Assembly (NCBI GenBank): GCA_943329925.2
Contig: CALQFT020000005.1
Coordinates: 1 to 58,352 of the forward strand
Length of the DNA stretch: 58,352 nt
Direction: 5' to 3'
Source of the DNA: Opitutus sp. GAS368
Lineage (GTDB): Bacteria; Verrucomicrobiota; Verrucomicrobiia; Chthoniobacterales; Chthoniobacteraceae
Shown here: piece after piece, positions 5,824-32,484 of the stretch
Layout: each line of letters starts with the position of its first letter
How positions within the stretch are numbered: position 1 is the stretch's first letter
The notes under the pieces: model-generated
Databases searched by the model: none
Told to the model about the DNA's origin: nothing
The model's input: the letters and a program-made list of their open reading frames with translations, nothing else
Position numbers and translations under genes: made by a program

Positions 5824-6726
5824 CTACGGAGCCTCGGCTTTGAGAAGCGCTTTGGCAAAGCGGTTACCAACCTCGAGGGTGCCCTTCCCAGTAAAATGCG
5901 TTTGGCTTGGGAGCAATGTCTCTGCCCCGTCCGTGTCGACATACGCGCAAAATTTGTCATTCGCAGCGTGCGCTTTTTGCGCAGCGATTACCTCCGCCAC
6001 ATACGGGTTTTTGTCATTCCCAAAGTGCACATTAACCCCCACCAAACAGCGCAACTCTGGCGCCCCGATTTCTCTACGAAGCGCCCCGAGCATTTCCGAA
6101 AGCGCTTGCTGATACTTTGGCGCATCCTTCGCATTTGAGTCGCTTTCTCCCTGAACCCAGACCAAAGCCCTTGGATGTAAGGTAACCCCCGCCTCTGCTG
6201 CAGCGGCAATCGCAGCTTTTGCTTCTGTCACAAGCGCCCGGTAGCAGGCACCACCCGCCCCCGGATCATTCGCGTTCCAATCTTTGCTCAATCCCGTTCC
6301 GCTGAAGGCGACCTTCACAACAGCCAGTGCCTTGGGTTGTTGACGCTGAAGCTCCCGCGCCAACCCCATCTCGGGGCCAAAACCACCGCCAGCATTTTTG
6401 AAATTTCCATACTGCCGTCCTAGGCCTTCGGCCGGAACATCCTCGGGAGGTGCAGTTTTTGAAATAGGATTTCCACGGGGCTGTATTTGCAATGTGCTCC
6501 ACTTTCGGCTGCTCGTCGAATCATGCTCGTCGGGAGGCGGATCCCCCACACGCCACCAGAACATCACTTGTTTGTCCGTGGGATCTTCCAAAAGCGTCTC
6601 AGGATAAGCGTCATACCCAACGGCATTGGATTGTCCGGCTACAAGGATGAGATCACGGGACTCCGCGGCTAACAGCGAGACGGATGTCGCTAACAACAGA
6701 GACAGCAGTGAGGAAAAGGGGTTCAT
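5824..6726 (-). CDS. Exported sialate O-acetylesterase-like SGNH esterase (DUF303/CE6-like)
   Basis: 300 aa; signal peptide; DLILVAGQSNAVGY block, GFGPEMGLARELQ, ALVWVQGESDSN. Confidence 0.85.
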   Translation of the reverse strand: MNPFSSLLSLLLATSVSLLAAESRDLILVAGQSNAVGYDAYPETLLEDPTDKQVMFWWRVGDPPPDEHDSTSSRKWSTLQIQPRGNPISKTAPPEDVPAEGLGRQYGNFKNAGGGFGPEMGLARELQRQQPKALAVVKVAFSGTGLSKDWNANDPGAGGACYRALVTEAKAAIAAAAEAGVTLHPRALVWVQGESDSNAKDAPKYQQALSEMLGALRREIGAPELRCLVGVNVHFGNDKNPYVAEVIAAQKAHAANDKFCAYVDTDGAETLLPSQTHFTGKGTLEVGNRFAKALLKAEAP

Positions 6727-8597: not shown

Positions 8598-8875
8598 TTT
8601 TCTCTGGAAAACGCCCTTTAGCAATTTCCCTTTAGCAATTTCCAAACTCCGCTCCCAGAAGGCACCCTCGACAATGTCTGATGCGCCGAATTGGAACGGA
8701 ACTGAACGTTGAATCGATTTTCGCTCTGATGCAACAATGGAGTGACGATTTTTCTCAAAGTCGGCAGCAATTTCAAAAAAAGTTTCCAGGAACCAGAATC
8801 AAGGTGCCCAGTAAAACTCATAATCCTTTTTGAAATTTCAGGCTTTTCGCCCTCTTACCCCAAGCCCAATCTCTG

Positions 8876-9247
8876 TTGATGCGCCTCCTCCCAGTTATCG
8901 CGACCCTTCTTATGACCGCCTCCACACTGCTAGGGGCCGAGGCCCCGGTTCGCCACGTTGTTTCCTTTAAATTCAAGGCGGACGCCACCGTCGAGCAGGT
9001 ACATGCAATCGAGAGCGCCTTCGCTGCCCTCAAAACGAAGATTCCCCAAATTCAGTCGCTGGAGTGGGGCACGAACGTGAGCGAAGAGAAACTCGACAAA
9101 GGGTTTACGCACATGTGGGTGCTGGGCTTTGCAGACGCTAAAAACCTTAAGGTGTACTTGGATCATCCGGATCATCAGGCGTTTGTTGCACTGCTCAAGC
9201 CGAGCTTGGCAGACGCCTTCGTGGTGGATTTTCAGCGGCGCCCCTAA
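8876..9247 (+). CDS. Exported Dabb-family (stress-responsive alpha/beta-barrel) protein
   Basis: Signal peptide followed by VRHVVSFKFKADATVEQVHAIESAFAALKTKIPQI...THMWVLGFADAKNLKVYLDHPDHQAFV; TTG at 8876 or ATG at 8879. Confidence 0.85.
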   Translation: MMRLLPVIATLLMTASTLLGAEAPVRHVVSFKFKADATVEQVHAIESAFAALKTKIPQIQSLEWGTNVSEEKLDKGFTHMWVLGFADAKNLKVYLDHPDHQAFVALLKPSLADAFVVDFQRRP

Positions 9248-17649: not shown

Positions 17650-18753
17650 TTAAGAGCTTGGTGCTCTGACGGAGTGTCCTTTCACGAAGTTTGGGAACAG
17701 GAGGGTGTTGGTGGGCTTGGAGGAGTGCTGCTTGGCGAGCCGTAGAATAGTGCGGCAGATGCGCTGCGCCATGCTTGAATTGCTAAGGGAATAATGAGCG
17801 AGCATTGGGGAAACGCTCTCGAAAAGAGGGTCGTAATCTCGCGCGATGAGCGACAGATTTTCCGGAACGCGTATCCCGCTTTTGAGCAGGTGTAGAATTG
17901 CGGCTAGGGTGAATCTGGGTCTGGCTATGAGGAGTCCGGTGGGGGGCTTATTCGAGCGCAGAAGTGAGTCGAGTTTTTTGCAGAGCTGCTCGGAGGCCCC
18001 GTTGTGGCGAAGGACGGTTAACTCCACTTTATGGGGGTTATTTTGTTGGGCGGCTTCCAGAAAACCCGCTTCGCTTGCGCAGTCCCCGGCGGCGAGCCAG
18101 TCCGGGAGTAGGAAGGCGATATTGCGATGCCCCATAGCGATCAGTACTCCAGCGGCATGCCTGCACACAGCCCGGTAATCGATGTCTAGGGAGGGAAGTT
18201 CGACCCCCGGATGACAGGAGCCGAGAATGAAAGCCGGCAAGGAGCGTTCGAGAAACCACGTTTGGATCTCTTTGGAGACGGAAAGCAACACGCAGCAGGC
18301 CAGAGTGTTCTGTTGTAGGAATTCTTCGAGCCGTTTTTTTTGTGCGCTCAGGCCGCGCCGCGGGCATACGAGTACGATGGTCTTAAAACCTTGTTCAGAA
18401 AGAAGCGCGCTGGTTTTCGAAATAGTTTCGTAAGAGGAGAACGACATTTTGGATAAGGGCTCGTGAGTGATAAGGCCCACGAGGGTCTTTGTGGTTACCC
18501 GCTTAGCTTCAGGTGAAAGAAGGAGTCTGTTGCGGCGTCCTTGCTGGATGGTGAAAAGGCCCTCTCTGGCAAGAATCCGCAGGGCCGTGCGCACCGTGGG
18601 GCGGCTGATCTGCAAGATTTCGCACAACTTCCTCTCGCTTGGAAGTTGGTCTCGCCATACGCCTTCTGCGAGTGCGTGGCGGATGGCGTCGGCTGCTTGG
18701 GAGGAGAGGAGGTTGCGTTTTGGGGAGGCTAATTGAATGTCCGAACTGTTCAT
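17650..18753 (-). CDS. GntR/LacI hybrid transcriptional regulator (AraR-like architecture)
   Basis: N-terminal GntR wHTH (ADAIRHALAEGVWRDQLPSERKLCEILQISRPTVRTALRILAREGLFTIQQGRRNRL), C-terminal LacI/periplasmic-binding-like domain. Confidence 0.85.
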   Translation of the reverse strand: MNSSDIQLASPKRNLLSSQAADAIRHALAEGVWRDQLPSERKLCEILQISRPTVRTALRILAREGLFTIQQGRRNRLLLSPEAKRVTTKTLVGLITHEPLSKMSFSSYETISKTSALLSEQGFKTIVLVCPRRGLSAQKKRLEEFLQQNTLACCVLLSVSKEIQTWFLERSLPAFILGSCHPGVELPSLDIDYRAVCRHAAGVLIAMGHRNIAFLLPDWLAAGDCASEAGFLEAAQQNNPHKVELTVLRHNGASEQLCKKLDSLLRSNKPPTGLLIARPRFTLAAILHLLKSGIRVPENLSLIARDYDPLFESVSPMLAHYSLSNSSMAQRICRTILRLAKQHSSKPTNTLLFPNFVKGHSVRAPSS

Positions 18754-18766
18754 AAAGTGTTACCAG
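18746..18766. promoter_or_regulatory. Candidate operator site 1 (CTGTTCATAAAGTGTTACCAG)
   Basis: 21-bp imperfect dyad overlapping the regulator start codon in the divergent intergenic region; 16/21 identity to the 19772-19792 site. Confidence 0.5.
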
Positions 18767-18812
18767 TTGAAATGTCTTGGATCAGGCAGGGGAAAAGCAT
18801 TTGGTTGAAGAA

Positions 18813-19715
18813 ATGAATACGAGCGTCCGTATGAAAATTTGGTCTGCCATTCCAACCCCCCTAACCGAAAACCTTCAGGTCGACGAAGCCTCGATGGCAC
18901 GTTCGGTGGAGGCTTCCGTGAGGGATTCTGTCGATGGGTTGTTTGTTGCGGGAACTTGCGGGGAAGGACCTTGGCTCACAGATAAGGAGCGAGCAAAATT
19001 GCTTGGGTGTGTCGTTCGTTCTGCGGCAGGGCGTCTGAAAATTGCGATGCAGGTTTCTGACAACTCTGTGCCGAGGATATTAGAAAACATGAAAGCGGCG
19101 GCCGCTGGAGGCGCAGACTATGCGATCATCGCAGCGCCCGCGTTTTTATTGAATGCAACAGAGGACCGGGTTGCAGCGCATTTTCTTGGAGCAATTGACG
19201 CCAGTCCATTGCCTGTTGGTATCTATGATTTGGGGAAACATCGGCAGATTGTGATTCCAGAGGACCGTCTCGGAGAGTTATACCGCCACCCGAAAGTGGC
19301 CATTATCAAGGACAGTTCGGGTTCTGAATCCAGGCGGGTTGTCGCGCTTGCGGCACGCGCGCAACGCCCTGAGCTAGTGCTTTTGAACGGGGATGAATTC
19401 CGTTGCATAGAGTATATGGAGGCTGGGTATGATGGGGTGATGTTTGGAGGGGCGGTGATGACCGCAAGACAGTTGCGTCGAATTGGAGAGCTTCTGAGTG
19501 CGGGTCGAAGGGAGGAGGCTGCCGCATTGGATGCTGAAGTAAAACGGCGCCTGTATGGCGTTTATGGAGGTGAGTCCATCCTATGCTGGCTCACTGGGTT
19601 AAAGTATTGGATGGTGCGGGCAGGCTTATTTGAGGGGACTGCGAGTTATTTGGGATATCCGCTGCATGAGGAGTGCAAGGCCTTTGTGGAAGCAGATGCC
19701 GCCTTACATGGTTAG
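18813..19715 (+). CDS. Dihydrodipicolinate synthase/N-acetylneuraminate lyase family protein
   Basis: Track ORF 18777..19715; likely start MNTSVRMKIWSAIPTPL. GLFVAGTCGEGPWLT motif, Tyr in VGIYDLGKH and Schiff-base Lys in VAIIKDSSG. Confidence 0.88.
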   Translation: MNTSVRMKIWSAIPTPLTENLQVDEASMARSVEASVRDSVDGLFVAGTCGEGPWLTDKERAKLLGCVVRSAAGRLKIAMQVSDNSVPRILENMKAAAAGGADYAIIAAPAFLLNATEDRVAAHFLGAIDASPLPVGIYDLGKHRQIVIPEDRLGELYRHPKVAIIKDSSGSESRRVVALAARAQRPELVLLNGDEFRCIEYMEAGYDGVMFGGAVMTARQLRRIGELLSAGRREEAAALDAEVKRRLYGVYGGESILCWLTGLKYWMVRAGLFEGTASYLGYPLHEECKAFVEADAALHG

Positions 19716-19771
19716 GTTGAGGAATTGAGGAATCCTGTTTGGATGGGCCACTTTTGGGAGCAGTCAGGAGG

Positions 19772-19792
19772 CTGGTCACTAGTTGTTACCAG
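19772..19792. promoter_or_regulatory. Candidate operator site 2 (CTGGTCACTAGTTGTTACCAG)
   Basis: 21-bp dyad (CTGGT...ACCAG arms) upstream of the SDR gene; matches site 1. Confidence 0.5.
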
Positions 19793-19904
19793 AGTTCCTG
19801 AAGGGAGCCAAGCGTGAAGCGTTTCCTCAGCGTGGTTCCAAGGCTATCGGGAAAAACAGCGCAGGCTGATCCTGATTTATAAGAGTCCACAGAAGAATCT
19901 AAGA

Positions 19905-20690
19905 ATGACTACCCCTGATATAAACAAAGGCAGATCCACTCCTGGTGCAGGGCTCAAGGTCGTTGTTACCGGCGGGGCCACTGGCATTGGGCTCGCCATT
20001 ACCGAAGCTTTTGTGGGGATCGGGGCGAGGGTTGTAATTGGCCAACCTGAGGTGTCCGTGGCGGACTCGTTATTGGAAAGGCACGGTCTCAGCGTGCGGG
20101 TGTTGCCTGTGGATATTGGAGAGCCAGAGGCTTGCAAGCGGTTTATGGATGAAGGTGCAGCGTGGTTGGGAGGCCTTGATGTTTTAGTCAACAACGCAGC
20201 AATGACGGGGGTGGCCTGCCTAGGCTCACTTGAAGAAGTAACTCCCGCAGAGTTTGATCGGATGATGCGGGTGAATGTCGGTGGTGCGTTTTTCTGTTCG
20301 CAGGCAGCCGTGCCGCATTTGCGGGCAAACGGAGGTGGAGTCATTGTGCACATATCGTCGGTGAACGCGATTCGTCCACAGCGCGGCGCGATGGTTTATG
20401 CGGCAAGCAAGGCGGCGCTGAGCTCACTGGCACAGTCGATGGCGAAGGAACTTGCGGTGGACGGGATTCGCGTGGTGGCTGTGGCGCCCGGAGACATCCG
20501 GGTGGAAACGTCTTGGGAAATGGAGCAGGCGGCAGCGGCGGGCGGCGCAGGCTCGGATGTTTTTGGGCAAACCCCGCTTGGCCACGGAGAACCTAAAGAT
20601 GTGGCACAGGCCGTTGTTTTTATTTGTTCGCCGAGTGCAAAATTTGTCACGGGTGTGACCTGGGTGGTGGACGGAGGGTTGCTCGCGTGA
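19905..20690 (+). CDS. SDR-family oxidoreductase
   Basis: VVTGGATGIGLAITEAF cofactor motif, NNAAM, YAASK catalytic motif, C-terminal VTGVTWVVDGGLLA. Confidence 0.93.
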   Translation: MTTPDINKGRSTPGAGLKVVVTGGATGIGLAITEAFVGIGARVVIGQPEVSVADSLLERHGLSVRVLPVDIGEPEACKRFMDEGAAWLGGLDVLVNNAAMTGVACLGSLEEVTPAEFDRMMRVNVGGAFFCSQAAVPHLRANGGGVIVHISSVNAIRPQRGAMVYAASKAALSSLAQSMAKELAVDGIRVVAVAPGDIRVETSWEMEQAAAAGGAGSDVFGQTPLGHGEPKDVAQAVVFICSPSAKFVTGVTWVVDGGLLA

Positions 20691-20704
20691 ATCGCAGTCT
20701 TGGG

Positions 20705-21679
20705 CTACATGGGTGCGATGGTGCAAAGCGCATCCCCAAGGCTCACAGAGCGTTGCCTGCGCAGCATCACAATGGTGCCCGTACGTTCGGCAAGGATGGG
20801 GGACGGTGCTCCAGAATCAGTGGGGAGAACCGCGCCAAGGATCTGCTTGCTCTTTATTTTCGCTCCAATTCTGGCGGTTGGGTCAGGAATAAAAAGACCG
20901 TGATGCGGGGCGGGATGATGGACTTGGAGATGGGCTTCTTGGGAGTCGGAACTCTCCCGGAACTTTTGTGGGCGAAGGGTTTTGAGTGGGCCGGAGACGA
21001 CTCCACTCCAGCGCAGGAGTTGCCGCAGACCGAGGTGGAGGGCGCGCAGATCTTTAGGGTGAACGCCGCCTGCGCCCCGGCATTCTACATAGACGGCAGG
21101 GATGTTGCGGGCATGAGCAGCGCTGAGAGTGCGGCCTGGGAGGAAAGGTCCAGACCAGCACCAGAAGCGGTCAAAGCAAGCGGCCATAGCGCGTTGTGCT
21201 CGGCCCACTTTGTCTTTGCTGGAAAGAAAACCCACCCACGGGAGCAGTTCGTATGCAGCGCCGGCGCTGTGGAGGTCGACGTAGTGGGTGCATTGGGCGA
21301 GGAGTTGGGTGTCAAAGAGATGGGCGAGTTGACTGGTGTCGCTTCCGTTTTTTTTACCCGGGAAAGCGCGAGCGAGATTGCCATCGTCAGAGGGAGTGCA
21401 TCTGCTTCCTGCGAAAAAGGCGGCCTCATTGAGGATGGGAACGGCGACGACGGTTCCATTGAGGCGGGAGGGCCGCCAGCTTTGCGCCCACTGGCTCAAA
21501 AGTGTGGGCCCCTCGTATTCGTCGCCGTGGGTGGCGCCGTTGATGAGGACAACGGGGCCCGGGTTGCCCTTCCAGACAAAGGCGTTAAAACCCACGCGCT
21601 GCGTTTTAAAACGCAGGGTGTGTATTCCAAGTGGAAGGGCGCTGAGATCAGAGTGTAGTTTTGCGGAGGACGAGGCCAT
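20705..21679 (-). CDS. Succinylglutamate desuccinylase/aspartoacylase-family deacylase
   Basis: Track ORF 20705..21907; start at ATG 21679 (MASSSAKLHSDLSALPLG). Zinc motif NGATHGDEYEGP, second block HYVDLHSAG. Confidence 0.82.
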   Translation of the reverse strand: MASSSAKLHSDLSALPLGIHTLRFKTQRVGFNAFVWKGNPGPVVLINGATHGDEYEGPTLLSQWAQSWRPSRLNGTVVAVPILNEAAFFAGSRCTPSDDGNLARAFPGKKNGSDTSQLAHLFDTQLLAQCTHYVDLHSAGAAYELLPWVGFLSSKDKVGRAQRAMAACFDRFWCWSGPFLPGRTLSAAHARNIPAVYVECRGAGGVHPKDLRALHLGLRQLLRWSGVVSGPLKTLRPQKFRESSDSQEAHLQVHHPAPHHGLFIPDPTARIGAKIKSKQILGAVLPTDSGAPSPILAERTGTIVMLRRQRSVSLGDALCTIAPM

Positions 21680-21759
21680 GGATTTCCATCTCAGAAACAA
21701 GAACTTGGGCGGAAGGTGCAAGCAAAACCGACTTGTGAGGTTTGGATCGCTCCATTTTA

Positions 21760-21780
21760 CTGGACTGCTGAGAGGACCAG
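21760..21780. promoter_or_regulatory. Weak candidate operator site 3 (CTGGACTGCTGAGAGGACCAG)
   Basis: Same CTGG-N13-CCAG spacing as site 2, in the divergent region between the deacylase and threonine-synthase-like genes; only arms are conserved. Confidence 0.3.
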
Positions 21781-21856
21781 TTTTGAGCTCTGGTAAGAGT
21801 GGAAAGCTGCGGGTAGTCCTTTTGAAGACTGAAAGCAGGTTTTGATTGGAGGATTT

Positions 21857-22936
21857 ATGAGCATTTGGAAGTACGCAAAGCACTGGGAAGGACCTCCACT
21901 GGCACATGCCGTTACAATGGGGGAGGGCGGCACTCCGCTTGTGCGTTCCACGCGCATCGGGCCGGCGCTTGGCCTCGAGAATCTCTGGTTCAAATTGGAA
22001 GGAACCAATCCGACGGGTTCGTACAAGGACAGGTTTGCGGCGGCAGCCGTGTCACATTTACGGAGGCAGGGGCGAGGACTGTGCTTGGGAACATCCAGTG
22101 GCAATACGGGTGCGGCGCTTGCGGCCTACTGTGCGAGGGCCGGCCTGCGCTGTATCCTTGCCATAGTGGAGGGGGCGCCCGAGGGGAAGTTGCGCCAAAT
22201 GCGAGCTTACGGAGCCGATTTGTTGAGAATCCGTGGGTTCGGTTCTTCGTCTGCGGTGAGCGTCTGTGTCATGGAGGGACTCCAAGATCTGGCGAGGGAA
22301 TTGGAGGCAGGTTTTGAAATTAGCGCCTACCGTTTTTCCCCCTTGGGAATGGCTGGGGTGGAAACTATTGGCATTGAGCTGAGTGAGTTTTTTTCCGGAG
22401 AATCCTTCGCTGTGTTTAGTCCCGCGGGAGGCGGGGGTTTGACTTTGGCGGTTGCGCGCGGGATAGAGAGTTTTGGAGGGCGGGCGCGCGTTCACTGTGT
22501 GCAGCCGATTGGAAACGATACAATGGCGACTGCACTTAGAGAGGGTGGACCGACTGTGGCGGTGGAGTCTAAAACGGCCATTAGCGGACTGCAGGTTGGA
22601 GGTGTGTTGGATGGGGACGCAGTGGTGGAGATCTGCCGGCGAATGGGAGGGAGCGGTTATGTAGTCGCGGATGAGGCCGTGTGGGAATGGCAGGCGCGCT
22701 TGGTGCGGGAGGAGGGTGTTTTTTGCGAGCCCGCCGGAGCGGTGGCCTTGGCTGGGGTGGCGCAGGCTTTGGCCCTTGGCGAGCTTGATGCGCGCCGCCA
22801 GATCGTTTGTCTTGTGACGGGCACTGCGTTTAAAGACGAGCGCTCCCTTAATCGGTTAACTGGTGAAGGGGAAACCCGGATGACGGACGATTTTACGGAA
22901 TTTAAAAGAGAGGTGCGAAAGCTCTGTTTGGCGTGA
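21857..22936 (+). CDS. Threonine synthase-like PLP-dependent enzyme
   Basis: GTNPTGSYKDRFAAAAVSHL PLP-lysine motif, GTSSGNTGAALAAYCARAG, SPAGGGGLTLAVARG. Confidence 0.87.
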   Translation: MSIWKYAKHWEGPPLAHAVTMGEGGTPLVRSTRIGPALGLENLWFKLEGTNPTGSYKDRFAAAAVSHLRRQGRGLCLGTSSGNTGAALAAYCARAGLRCILAIVEGAPEGKLRQMRAYGADLLRIRGFGSSSAVSVCVMEGLQDLARELEAGFEISAYRFSPLGMAGVETIGIELSEFFSGESFAVFSPAGGGGLTLAVARGIESFGGRARVHCVQPIGNDTMATALREGGPTVAVESKTAISGLQVGGVLDGDAVVEICRRMGGSGYVVADEAVWEWQARLVREEGVFCEPAGAVALAGVAQALALGELDARRQIVCLVTGTAFKDERSLNRLTGEGETRMTDDFTEFKREVRKLCLA

Positions 22937-22966
22937 GGTTGCCCTTACAAAACGAGTCTGGTTTTC

Positions 22967-22988
22967 GCTTTCTATTTCAGAAGAAAGC
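22967..22988. other. 7-bp perfect inverted repeat GCTTTCT-N8-AGAAAGC
   Basis: Direct reading, upstream of the MFS gene; function unknown. Confidence 0.4.
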
Positions 22989-23051
22989 CTGTTGAATATG
23001 AAGTAGTGATGGCGACTTAATAAGCTGCCATTTAAGAACATCTCCCCCCCT

Positions 23052-24317
23052 ATGATTGCTTCTTCAGGTGCCATTAAGGTGTCTCCTCCGGTTCCCTCCC
23101 GCCCCAACCCTTGGATTGTGGTGGCGCTGCTTTTTGTGGTGGCGTGTTTAAACTATTTGGACCGTGTGATGCTCACGACCATGAGGAGTTCAGTGGTCGC
23201 AGCCATCCCGATGACTGACACGCAGTTCGGGCTTCTGATGTCCGGCTTTCTTTGGGTTTACGCGCTGATGAGTCCTGTCGGCGGTTTTCTTGCTGATCGA
23301 ATCAGTCGGAGCAAAGTGATTGTTTGGAGTTTGTTTTTGTGGTCGGCAGTGACGTGGATGACCTCTAGGGCGACGACTTTCGAGGAGTTGTTGGCGACGC
23401 GAATTCTGATGGGTTTTGGCGAGGCTTGTTATATCCCAGCGGCGGTGGCGTTGATTTCAGATTATCATCGAGGCGTGACCCGTTCGCTTGCCACTGGCAT
23501 ACACATGACTGGGATCTCATTGGGGCAGGCGCTTGGTGGGTTTGGGGGAGTTTTGGCGGATAAACACGAGTGGTCTTACGCGTTTAGTCTGTTCGGTATT
23601 TTCGGGGTGCTTTACGGTGTTCTGCTGGCGTGCACCTTGCGTGATGCTCCTCCAGATAGCGTTCAAGGGCCTGTTGATGCCGCTCCAAAGGTTCAGTTTT
23701 TGGAAGCCATTCGAAGTTTGTTTTCCTCTCGTTCTTATTGTTGTGCACTTGGATTTTGGGGACTCCTTTCGTTTGCTTCGTGGTGTATTGTGGGCTGGTT
23801 GCCAACCTTTTGGGGTGAGCGCTTTCATTTGAGTCAGGGAACTGCCGGACTTTCTGCCACCGTATATTTGCAGATAGCCGCTGCCGCTGGTTTTCTGGTG
23901 GCAGGGTTTCTTTCGGATCGAGCCAGTCGAGGCGATCCGTGGGGGCGGTTGCGAGTGACAATGATTGGCATCGCGATATCTGCTCCGGCGATTTTTCTGG
24001 GCTCCAACGCCACCACTTTTTCTGTGGCGATACTTGGATTTATGCTTTGGGCGTTTGGAAATGCGTTTGCGAGTTCCAATATGATGCCAATGCTTTGTTT
24101 GATCTCTGACCCGCGCTACAGAGCGACTGGGTACGGGATTCTAAATCTCTGCTCGTGCACGATTGGGGGCTTGAGCACCTACTTGGGTGGAGTGGTGCGT
24201 GACCGGCACATCGGGGTGTTAGTGATCTTCAACACATCCGTGGGTGTGATCGTTTTATGCTGCGTGCTTCTGTATTTCATGAAGCCGCGGCAAGGCGAAT
24301 CAAGCGCCGCTACTTGA
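23052..24317 (+). CDS. MFS transporter (anion:cation symporter-like)
   Basis: 421 aa, about 12 TM segments; CLNYLDRVMLTTMRSSV, GGFLADRISRSKVIVWSLFLWSAVTWMT, RILMGFGEACYIPAAVALISDYH. Confidence 0.92.
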   Translation: MIASSGAIKVSPPVPSRPNPWIVVALLFVVACLNYLDRVMLTTMRSSVVAAIPMTDTQFGLLMSGFLWVYALMSPVGGFLADRISRSKVIVWSLFLWSAVTWMTSRATTFEELLATRILMGFGEACYIPAAVALISDYHRGVTRSLATGIHMTGISLGQALGGFGGVLADKHEWSYAFSLFGIFGVLYGVLLACTLRDAPPDSVQGPVDAAPKVQFLEAIRSLFSSRSYCCALGFWGLLSFASWCIVGWLPTFWGERFHLSQGTAGLSATVYLQIAAAAGFLVAGFLSDRASRGDPWGRLRVTMIGIAISAPAIFLGSNATTFSVAILGFMLWAFGNAFASSNMMPMLCLISDPRYRATGYGILNLCSCTIGGLSTYLGGVVRDRHIGVLVIFNTSVGVIVLCCVLLYFMKPRQGESSAAT

Positions 24318-29513: not shown

Positions 29514-30389
29514 GTGTCAAATTCTCTAGCTATTGGATTCGTTGGAACCGGCGTGATGGGGCGTAGCATGGCTTCTCATCTGCTCCATGCCGGCCATACC
29601 GTGCATGTTTACAATCGCACCCGTGAAAAGGCGCAAACTTTGCTCGATGCCGGCGCGCATTGGCACGAATCCCCCGGCGAGGTGGCCGCTGCGTCGGATG
29701 TTATTATTACAATGCTTGGATTCCCCACCGATGTGGAAACTTGTTATTTCGCCGAAGGCGGCATTATAGAAAAAGCGAAGCAGGGCGCGCTTTTGATTGA
29801 TATGACGACCTCCAGTCCATTGTTGGCCCAACGCATTTCCGTCGCGGCGGCTGCGCGCGGCTTGGAGGCTTTGGATGCGCCGGTTTCAGGCGGGGATATC
29901 GGCGCCCGTGAGGCGCGGTTGGTGATTATGGTCGGCGGCGAGGCGGCCGCTTTCGAGCGCGCCAAACCTGTGTTGGAATTGTTGGGCAAGAACATCGCAC
30001 TTTTGGGTGCCGCTGGAGCCGGTCAACACTGTAAAATGGCCAATCAAATCGCCGTCGCTGTCGGGATGGTGGCTTGGTGCGAGGCGCTCGCCTACGCCCA
30101 GAAGGCTGGATTGGCTCCCGCAGCCGTGCATCAAAGTATCAGTGGCGGCGCCGCTGGAAGCTGGGCGCTTACTACTTTGGCTCCGCGCGCGCTTTCTGGC
30201 GACTTTGCCCCCGGCTTTTACGTCAAACACATCCTCAAAGACATGCGCATTGCTTTGGATAGCGCCGCTGAGTTGCATCTGGATCTCCCAGGACTTGCCA
30301 TCGCCCGCAAGCTCTACGAACAGGTCGCCGAGCGGGGTTGGGAAGACTGTGGCACCCAGGCCCTTTATCGTTTGTACCTCGCCCAATGA
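29514..30389 (+). CDS. NAD(P)-dependent beta-hydroxyacid dehydrogenase (tartronate semialdehyde reductase-like)
   Basis: GFVGTGVMGRSMASHLLHAGHTVHVYNRT, DAPVSGGDIGAREARLVIMVGGE, GAGQHCKMANQI. GTG start. Confidence 0.92.
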   Translation: MSNSLAIGFVGTGVMGRSMASHLLHAGHTVHVYNRTREKAQTLLDAGAHWHESPGEVAAASDVIITMLGFPTDVETCYFAEGGIIEKAKQGALLIDMTTSSPLLAQRISVAAAARGLEALDAPVSGGDIGAREARLVIMVGGEAAAFERAKPVLELLGKNIALLGAAGAGQHCKMANQIAVAVGMVAWCEALAYAQKAGLAPAAVHQSISGGAAGSWALTTLAPRALSGDFAPGFYVKHILKDMRIALDSAAELHLDLPGLAIARKLYEQVAERGWEDCGTQALYRLYLAQ

Positions 30390-31150
30390 GCACTTCACCT
30401 CTCTTTCGCAACCGAGTCCTCGCAGGCGAGTGGCTCGCAGGCACCTTCCTCAATCTCGGCTCCGCCTTGACGGCGGAAATAGCCGGCCGTTCGGGCTTCG
30501 ACTGGCTCATGCTCGATTTTGAGCACGGCCCGGGTTCGGACGAGACCCTGCTTCAACAGTTGCAGGCCGTTTCGGGAACCGCCGCCGCTACCATAGTCCG
30601 TCTGGCTGCCAATGAGACGCCCCGCTTTAAGCGAGCGCTGGATCTCGGGGCGGGCGGGGTGATGGTACCCTACGTCAATTCCGCCGAGGAGGCGCGCGCT
30701 GCTGTGGCTGCCGTTCGTTATCCGCCCCACGGCATTCGCGGGGTCTCCAAGTTCAATCGTGCCGCGGGATTCGGGCAGGATTTCGACGACTACTACGCGC
30801 ACGCTCACGAGCGCTTGGTGACCATGGTTCAAATCGAAACTCCGGAAGCCCTGCTCAATCTGGACGCTATTGCTGCCGTAGACGGAGTCGACGTCCTCTT
30901 CGTGGGGCCTTTGGATTTGACCACCAACATGGGGATCCAAGGCCAGTTTGAGCACCCCTCCTTCGTCCAGGCCCGTCTTCAAGTCGCCCAGGCGGCTCGG
31001 CAGGCAGGGAAGGCGGCTGGCATTCTGGCCACGGCGCCGACTCAGGTGGAAACCTTGCGCGCCGAAGGTTATTCGGTGCTCGCTTTGGGTAGCGATGGAG
31101 CTGCCGTTAGCGCGGGGTTGCGACAGTCTTTGGTTTCGCTCCGTGCCTGA
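30386..31150 (+). CDS. HpcH/HpaI aldolase (2-dehydro-3-deoxyglucarate aldolase-like)
   Basis: Start ATG 30386 overlaps the preceding stop (ATGA). GRSGFDWLMLDFEHGPGSDETL, VMVPYVNSAEEARAAVAAVRYPPHGIRG. Confidence 0.92.
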   Translation: MSTSPLFRNRVLAGEWLAGTFLNLGSALTAEIAGRSGFDWLMLDFEHGPGSDETLLQQLQAVSGTAAATIVRLAANETPRFKRALDLGAGGVMVPYVNSAEEARAAVAAVRYPPHGIRGVSKFNRAAGFGQDFDDYYAHAHERLVTMVQIETPEALLNLDAIAAVDGVDVLFVGPLDLTTNMGIQGQFEHPSFVQARLQVAQAARQAGKAAGILATAPTQVETLRAEGYSVLALGSDGAAVSAGLRQSLVSLRA

Positions 31151-31197
31151 TAGCTCCCCAAAATTTTCTATTATTCGGTAACTTTTACTCTTTCCCG

Positions 31198-32484
31198 ATG
31201 CGCCTCGCACAAATGCACATTACGCCGATCGCCCTTGGCGATCCGCCGCTTCTTAACGCAGCTGGATTGCACGCGCCGTACGCGCTGCGCACCGTGGTAG
31301 AACTCGTCACTGAGGACGGGATTTCCGGGTTGGCGGAGGTGCCCGGCAGCCTCGCTGTCGACGCTCTTCTAAATGAGGCACGCGCCGTAGTTTTGGGGGC
31401 GGATCCCCTGAACTGGCATGCGCTCAAGGCCCGTTTGGAAACGTATTTTCAACCCGAGTCCTCCGCTGCAAGGGGAGACGCGCCTTGGGATCAACGTAAA
31501 GTGGTGCAGGTTTTCAGTGCCTTGGACGTCGCCTGTCTGGACATTGCGGGAAAGGCCTTCGGCGTCCCTGTTGCCACGCTACTTGGCGGGGTTGTCCGCG
31601 AAAAAGTACCGTACTCCGCCTACCTCTTCTACAAATACGAGGGTGCCGGGGGCGTTTTGGAGTTCGACACCGATCCCAATGCCACGGGTTGGGACGCCGC
31701 TCGCCAACGTCCCGCTTTGGACGCCGATGGGATTGTCGCCCAAGCTCAGGCTATGGTGGAGGAGTTTGGCTTTCGTTCGCTTAAACTTAAAGGCGGCGTT
31801 TTTGAACCTGCGCTGGAAGTGGAATCCTTGCGCGCTTTGCGCTCCGCCTTCGGTCCTGGGGTGCCCATTCGCTACGATCCAAACGCCCTCTGGACGGTGG
31901 AAACCGCCATCCGTTATGGGCGTGAATTGGAAGACGTGCTGGAATATTTCGAGGATCCAGTGCGGGGACAGGCGGCCATGGCCGAAGTGCGCCGCTCAGT
32001 AAAGTTGCCCTTCGCCACCAACATGTGTACGACATCCTTTGCCGATCTTCCCGGAAGCGTACTCTCTCATTCAGAGGATATTATTTTAACCGACCATCAT
32101 TATTGGGGTGGCCTGCATTCCTCGATGGAGTTGGCCGCATTCTGCCGGAGCTTTGACCGGGGCATTTCGATGCACTCCAACAATCACGCCGGAATTTCCA
32201 TGGCCGCCATGACGCATCTCGGCGCGGCAATGCCCAATTTAAGCTACGCGCTCGACACTCATTACCCCTGGCAGTGGGAGGAAATTATTATCGGTGGGCG
32301 GCTTCCTATTGAGGACGGTTGCGTCTCACTACCCAAAGGCCCCGGACTCGGGGTGGAGTTGGACCGCCCGGCTTTGGCGCGAGCCCACGAGTCTTATCTG
32401 CGTTGCGGCTTGGCGGAGCGCGATGACCAGGTGGAGATGCAAAAGAAGGTTCCCGGATGGACCTTCAAAGCCACCCGCTGGTAG
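31198..32484 (+). CDS. Glucarate dehydratase-like enolase-superfamily enzyme
   Basis: RSLKLKGGVFEPALEVESLRALR, YDPNALWTVETAIRYGRELEDVLEYFEDPVRG, LPFATNMCTTSF, HSNNHAGISMAAMTHLGAAMPNLSYALDTHYPWQ, glucarate-dehydratase-like. Confidence 0.88.
   Translation: MRLAQMHITPIALGDPPLLNAAGLHAPYALRTVVELVTEDGISGLAEVPGSLAVDALLNEARAVVLGADPLNWHALKARLETYFQPESSAARGDAPWDQRKVVQVFSALDVACLDIAGKAFGVPVATLLGGVVREKVPYSAYLFYKYEGAGGVLEFDTDPNATGWDAARQRPALDADGIVAQAQAMVEEFGFRSLKLKGGVFEPALEVESLRALRSAFGPGVPIRYDPNALWTVETAIRYGRELEDVLEYFEDPVRGQAAMAEVRRSVKLPFATNMCTTSFADLPGSVLSHSEDIILTDHHYWGGLHSSMELAAFCRSFDRGISMHSNNHAGISMAAMTHLGAAMPNLSYALDTHYPWQWEEIIIGGRLPIEDGCVSLPKGPGLGVELDRPALARAHESYLRCGLAERDDQVEMQKKVPGWTFKATRW

Follow-up and report, generated by a model that had tools for sequence, protein, structure and literature searches.

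In the published routes for sialic acid, N-acetylmannosamine (ManNAc) is processed either by NanK and NanE, or by an AGE epimerase together with RokA (PMC10570557, PMC10017367). Surveys score sialic acid use by the presence of NanA, NanK and NanE, with the AGE route of Bacteroides as the sole alternative (PMC10570557, PMC10017367). A survey from 2009 lists NanA in Verrucomicrobia and Planctomycetes, and also NanA-bearing genomes without NanK or NanE (PMC2693436). The subject here is a cluster of six genes on contig CALQFT020000005.1 of Opitutus sp. GAS368, within a stretch of 58,352 nucleotides that is called the window below. It holds a regulator (REG), a DHDPS-family aldolase, a short-chain dehydrogenase/reductase (SDR), a zinc deacylase, a pyridoxal phosphate (PLP) enzyme and a major facilitator superfamily (MFS) transporter. 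The slightly preferred reading of this gene content is an oxidative route without phosphorylation, most of it encoded in the cluster, by which an N-acetyl aminosugar would be broken down; ManNAc from sialic acid is the most likely substrate. The oxidative aminosugar chemistry by itself is likely; for ManNAc from sialate as the substrate, the chances are about even to favourable.

The Ong pathway for oxidative chitin use in Pseudoalteromonas prydzensis runs by deacetylation and a PLP-dependent deamination to 2-keto-3-deoxygluconate (KDG); RidA is essential for growth, and the genes form one cluster (PMC9537276). What it has in common with the proposed route is that an N-acetylaminosugar acid is deacetylated without phosphorylation, that a PLP enzyme deaminates the product to KDG, and that a repressor governs the genes. 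RidA in the Ong cluster is matched in the Bacteroidota relatives of the window cluster. The proteins are different, however, and those of the Ong pathway take D-type substrates. OngB belongs to the D-aminoacylase family, while the window deacylase is an AstE_AspA_cat protein; OngC is a PLP enzyme of fold-type III, while its counterpart in the window is a PALP protein of fold-type II. In the Ong pathway KDG is phosphorylated by KdgK, whereas the window's route would have the SDR at its entry and an aldolase in place of the kinase. The window cluster is not an Ong member, but would work alike.

With the NanA-NanK-NanE system of the E. coli type, the proposed route shares the lyase that turns N-acetylneuraminate (Neu5Ac) into ManNAc and pyruvate, and relatives of the window cluster also carry the NanM mutarotase. 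The difference is that the window's genome is without NanE, and that ManNAc would be oxidised and not phosphorylated. The NanL-NanE-II(AGE)-RokA system of the Bacteroides fragilis type is similar in its Bacteroidota/Verrucomicrobiota setting, in MFS uptake and in having ManNAc unphosphorylated at first (PMC10017367). The window's genome is, however, without an AGE epimerase, and the trio of deacylase, SDR and PLP lyase, the conserved core of the cluster, would stand in for epimerase and kinase. An oxidative ManNAc route, or catabolism of N-acetylmannosaminate, was not found described in the open-access literature, subscription journals being outside the search. The catabolic module is probably undescribed so far. 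There is an even chance that it represents a third bacterial route for ManNAc and sialic acid, oxidative and free of kinase and epimerase, leading by way of N-acetylmannosaminate and mannosaminate to KDG, and found across Verrucomicrobiota, Bacteroidota and Planctomycetota.

That the cluster is a real conserved unit, beyond chance, is near certain. The order and strands of its genes are retained in independent Opitutaceae genomes at 50-70% protein identity, with the deacylase inverted there too. Opitutaceae likewise have a REG orthologue (47-50% identical) and the DHDPS gene in divergent orientation. A scan of genomes with the PLP enzyme as query returned 80 loci; neighbour counts given here cover only those with enough flank. 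The PLP gene has deacylase and SDR genes beside it in 15/15 Opitutaceae-type loci, 12/13 loci from other Verrucomicrobiota and 17/19 from Bacteroidota, as well as in 4/10 from Planctomycetota. The Bacteroidota trio is a tandem block on one strand, in the order deacylase-SDR-PLP. Fourteen loci around DHDPS genes of the phylum that are more distantly related served as a control and contained no trio member except chance SDRs. A plasmid search with the window DHDPS gave no match. Six loci from Schlesneria (Planctomycetota; L106, L107, L111, L113, L114, L118) have a PLP enzyme that is about 52% identical, and no deacylase or SDR was found there within 10 kb.

The neighbours of the trio point to sialate. 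In the Bacteroidota loci (Dyadobacter, Runella, Larkinella, Parapedobacter and others), it is accompanied by SusD, BNR sialidase-like, DHDPS-family lyase, MFS, RraA-like, RidA, M81, SMP-30/gluconolactonase and kelch proteins. The NanM-type mutarotase (PF24996/TIGR03548), SMP-30/gluconolactonase and RidA are each present in 19/19 of these loci, the DHDPS-family lyase in 18/19 and BNR genes in 17/19. The residues that mark an N-acetylneuraminate lyase (NAL), S-S/T-Y-K-T-G-D-E-S/T as taken from structures (PMC3014015, PMC5380162), are kept in 19/20 lyases of the Bacteroidota loci, with the remaining one (L135) having P at E192. This means that the Bacteroidota trio adjoins an enzyme whose residues mark it as one that converts sialate to ManNAc and pyruvate. 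MFS proteins that are 50-57% identical to that of the window are found in Bacteroidota clusters carrying NAL and the NanM-type mutarotase. Many six-gene clusters of Opitutaceae also hold a NanM-type kelch protein, BNR genes, HpcH/HpaI aldolases and a DUF4432 gene. A member of a pyruvate-aldolase family (HpcH/HpaI, RraA or DHDPS) is encoded within 10 kb in 13/15 Opitutaceae-type, 11/13 other Verrucomicrobiota and 19/19 Bacteroidota loci. The M81 (MlrC-type) metalloprotein, at L112 14324-15838 and equivalent places, occurs in 18/19 Bacteroidota clusters; the proposed route has no step for it.

The window's genome has a NanM-type protein beside a full-signature NAL at a separate locus (L151 9249-11351). 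In a close relative (G015), a NanM-type mutarotase, NAL and a BNR sialidase-like gene stand together (L153 7940-11430). NanE (PF04131) is absent from the window's genome and from ten Verrucomicrobiota compared; G015, too, has no NanE, and the AGE epimerase (PF07221) is absent from the window's genome and G015. These absences fit the need for another ManNAc route, although they are not decisive. Both genomes also contain a second cluster (L152 and L154), with HpcH/HpaI, a Gfo/Idh-like open reading frame (ORF), SDR, MFS and a class III aminotransferase-like gene. Its MFS is about 52% identical to a Dyadobacter MFS, and the cluster partly echoes the Bacteroidota ones.

The reactions, their order and the substrate are proposed here from the gene families, the conserved grouping, the promoter boxes and the NAL signature of the relatives. 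The MFS protein would import sialate or ManNAc. A lyase, either the window DHDPS or the canonical NAL that the genome encodes at another locus, would split sialate into ManNAc and pyruvate. The SDR could then oxidise C1 of ManNAc to the lactone or aldonate; the lactone would open, and a lactonase is present in the Bacteroidota loci. The AstE/AspA-like deacylase would release acetate, leaving mannosaminate (a beta-hydroxy-alpha-amino acid of (2S) configuration), from which the PLP enzyme would eliminate the 3-hydroxyl and ammonia to yield KDG, with RidA clearing the resulting enamine. A pyruvate aldolase, HpcH/HpaI or RraA in relatives and possibly the window DHDPS itself, would finally split KDG into pyruvate and glyceraldehyde. 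The deacylase belongs to a family (AspA, AstE, DoeB) that strips N-acyl groups from L-amino acids, and L-serine/threonine dehydratases likewise take substrates of the L configuration. Mannosaminate, being (2S), would suit such L-type enzymes better than (2R) glucosaminate.

An initial annotation of this DNA had already assigned the six families to the region, and Pfam profiles match all six where it placed them (Table 1). The catalytic residues that it described as intact are indeed so: Y138/K166 in the aldolase, YAASK in the SDR, HGDE and DLHS in the deacylase, and NPTGSYKDR in the PLP enzyme. Its claim that the cluster is catabolic and has a regulator dedicated to it holds up. It had also placed five enzyme and transport families under one divergent regulator, a grouping it tied to conservation in other genomes; the grouping is conserved there, so that claim survives. 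One correction concerns the strand of the deacylase, which is minus. Given that the flanking SDR and PLP genes are on the plus strand, the cluster is not one operon. Two gene starts need comment. The DHDPS ORF opens at 18777, with a likely start at ATG 18813. The listed deacylase ORF, extending to 21907, is over-long; relatives align from the ATG at 21679.

Table 1 Features of the cluster, in window coordinates.
Feature	Position	Strand	Support
REG, GntR-type DNA-binding and LacI-type ligand-binding regulator	17650..18753	-	Pfam GntR 2.1e-13, Peripla_BP_3 6e-18
TTACCAGT box in REG/DHDPS divergent promoter, likely operator	18760..18767	+	exact in 17/19 orthologous gaps
DHDPS/NAL-superfamily Schiff-base aldolase, divergent subfamily (GTCGEGPW motif), putative entry lyase or exit aldolase	18813..19715	+	Pfam DHDPS 3.7e-29
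TTACCAGA box in DHDPS/SDR gap	19786..19793	+	also in close relative L036
SDR, proposed N-acetylhexosamine (ManNAc) 1-dehydrogenase	19905..20690	+	adh_short_C2 6.6e-51
AstE/AspA/DoeB-like zinc deacylase, proposed N-acetylhexosaminate deacetylase	20705..21679	-	AstE_AspA_cat 2.7e-27
TTACCAGA box in deacylase/PLP divergent promoter	21789..21796	-	also in close relative L036
Fold-type II PLP enzyme, threonine-synthase-like, proposed aminohexonate (mannosaminate) ammonia-lyase/dehydratase	21857..22936	+	PALP 6.3e-73
MFS transporter (ACS/galactonate-type), proposed sialate or aminosugar importer	23052..24317	+	MFS_1 2.5e-59

The top NCBIfam match of the SDR is glucose 1-dehydrogenase, below its cut-off, and sulfoquinovose 1-dehydrogenase is among the nearest structures in the PDB. 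Among the nearest solved relatives of the deacylase is DoeB (6twm). The PLP enzyme is related by sequence to threonine synthase and to serine/threonine dehydratases. Threonine synthases (ThrC) are the solved structures nearest to it by sequence, but the ThrC stretch NSVNPYRLEGQKT reads SAYRFSPLGMAGVET in the window protein. A plain threonine synthase was rejected, since its score against thrC (TIGR00260) is 112.6 bits with a cut-off of 167.1, and two other loci of the genome score as true ThrC, with 334.6 and 277.5 bits. The structure model of the PLP enzyme is weak (predicted local distance difference test score, pLDDT, 70); the fold search made with it was disregarded.

The cluster also shares short boxes in its gaps, through which REG would control the genes. 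In the gap between REG and DHDPS, the exact TTACCAGT is found in 17 of 19 orthologous gaps, where a few loci represent the same genome twice; the other two gaps carry TGACCAGT, with one mismatch. Within the 58 kb window this 8-mer is found once, at 18760. The 7-mer TTACCAG has exactly three copies in the cluster, all of them intergenic (REG/DHDPS, DHDPS/SDR and deacylase/PLP). The close relative L036 has it in the same three gaps, with one copy at 8768, between the corrected deacylase start at 8885 and the PLP start at 8709. REG may bind these boxes. Two further genomes (G311 and G130) have a TTACCAG copy 3' of the PLP gene, before ORF L040:3117-5375 and its L041 counterpart. Judged by eye only, these ORFs resemble TonB-type receptors.

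Several observations weigh against a sialate route in the window. No NanM, sialidase, lactonase, RidA or HpaI gene lies between the ends of its cluster, and BNR genes are no proof of sialidase. In a genus mate (G007, L162), a BNR sialidase-like gene is found along with NAL and NanM, with the trio missing and no match to an epimerase. The absence of epimerases alone does therefore not demand the trio. AGE-family genes are moreover found elsewhere in 10/10 Bacteroidota genomes tested, and between them these two findings weaken what might have been a strong argument from missing epimerases. In G161, genes for REG, DHDPS, MFS, HpaI, NanM and a BNR protein are close together, and no trio was found there. 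Among Planctomycetota, most PLP relatives are without a trio nearby, as the count of 4/10 shows. The window DHDPS, lastly, is without the NAL recognition residues D191/E192/S208, having E/F/G there. As a separate matter, the G007 locus also holds an RraA-like gene.

What the window DHDPS does is a question in itself. Its Y138 and K166 are invariant, and it has the catalytic Tyr137/Lys165 of NAL as well as the GxxGE motif. In a confident model (pLDDT 92) the protein comes nearest to Corynebacterium glutamicum NAL and next to that of E. coli, both ahead of DHDPS structures, with small margins. A canonical NAL was rejected on account of the absent recognition residues, although the fold is nearest to NALs, and DapA was rejected as well (TIGR00674, 85.5 bits, cut-off 206). 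The C. glutamicum NAL also lacks the canonical recognition residues yet is active, so their absence is not decisive against NAL activity. The protein may instead be the exit aldolase that splits KDG into pyruvate and glyceraldehyde, with a separate canonical NAL cleaving sialate, which would be compatible with a sialate route. This has a somewhat less than even chance. It would explain why the recognition residues are missing here while the other NAL of the genome, beside NanM, has them, and the window cluster itself encodes neither HpcH/HpaI nor RraA. Against this, the model is closest to an active NAL with the same lack, many Opitutaceae already have HpcH/HpaI alongside such a DHDPS, and in G161 the gene is near a NanM-type protein and a BNR gene even though no trio was found. 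The balance leans slightly to an entry lyase, with the exit aldolase a close second. DHDPS proteins of this type (window 18813-19715; L110 12594-13535) make up a subfamily that has no name; its motifs are GTCGEGPW and, at the C-terminal end, CWLTGLK (CWLSGLK in L110).

The same chemistry could also serve another 2-acetamido sugar, such as N-acetylglucosamine (GlcNAc), N-acetylglucosaminate (GlcNAc1A), N-acetylquinovosamine or N-acetylfucosamine, or the aminosugar from a nonulosonate other than Neu5Ac (legionaminate, for example), with the aldolase cleaving a 2-keto-3-deoxy sugar acid. The Ong route runs such chemistry on GlcNAc1A, NanM and sialidase are absent from the window cluster, and many loci of Verrucomicrobiota and Planctomycetota have the trio together with an aldolase (HpcH/HpaI or RraA), with NAL and NanM absent. 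Yet a NAL-signature lyase and NanM accompany the trio in essentially all Bacteroidota loci, and the L-type enzyme families would, on general knowledge, favour mannosaminate over glucosaminate. Another sugar is rather unlikely on this evidence. A good deal less likely is catabolism of an N-acyl amino acid or an ectoine-like osmolyte, where the deacylase would free an amino acid, the PLP enzyme would eliminate, and aldolase and SDR would finish. The initial annotation had proposed an N-acyl amino acid as substrate, with hydroxyectoine degradation (EutE/EutB-like) as a parallel. Ectoine systems (eut/doe) do use the same superfamilies for deacylase and PLP lyase, and matches to DoeB and EutB exist at the family level. 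The scores are nevertheless far below the cut-offs, at 112.7 bits against 402.7 for DoeB (TIGR02994), and 75.7 against 413.35 for EutB (TIGR02991), where the best score of any EutB type is at most 88. The neighbours are also different ones: mutarotase, lactonase, sugar-acid aldolases and BNR proteins, with no ectoine gene recognised among those examined. The hydroxyectoine and N-acyl amino acid reading was rejected on these two grounds. Deacylation does stand, as does the logic of deacylation and PLP-dependent elimination plus an aldolase, which is reached here as well; the substrate is most likely an N-acetyl aminosugar acid from sialic acid instead. The SDR, which had been cast as a late reductase, is placed first as a sugar C1-dehydrogenase, on its matches to the glucose and sulfoquinovose enzymes. 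It is hardly credible that the six genes stand together without any relation, or that they are the remains of a cluster that no longer functions. The deacylase on the opposite strand and the patchy presence of the six-gene cluster, in only 2/40 genomes of the family, could suggest it, but gene order, intact motifs and boxes conserved across genomes refute it.

Should the cluster run the proposed route, sialate degraders of soil and fresh water would include an entire group that genome surveys overlook. The route would also account for the use of sialic acid by environmental bacteria that have a sialate lyase but lack NanE/NanK. The enzyme activities would in that case be new: a ManNAc 1-dehydrogenase in a pathway context, an N-acetylmannosaminate deacetylase and a mannosaminate ammonia-lyase. 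These could be useful in assays and in aminosugar chemistry.

Elsewhere in the window, at 29514-32484, a 3-hydroxyisobutyrate-dehydrogenase-type reductase, an HpcH/HpaI aldolase (30440-31108, plus strand) and an enolase-superfamily enzyme are found together. They look like a glucarate/galactarate branch of the GudD-GarL-GarR type, and could supply a KDG aldolase. At 5824-6726, 11 kb from the cluster, there is a SASA-family carbohydrate esterase (Pfam 'sialic acid-specific acetylesterase', 2.7e-29), whose link to the cluster is unproven.

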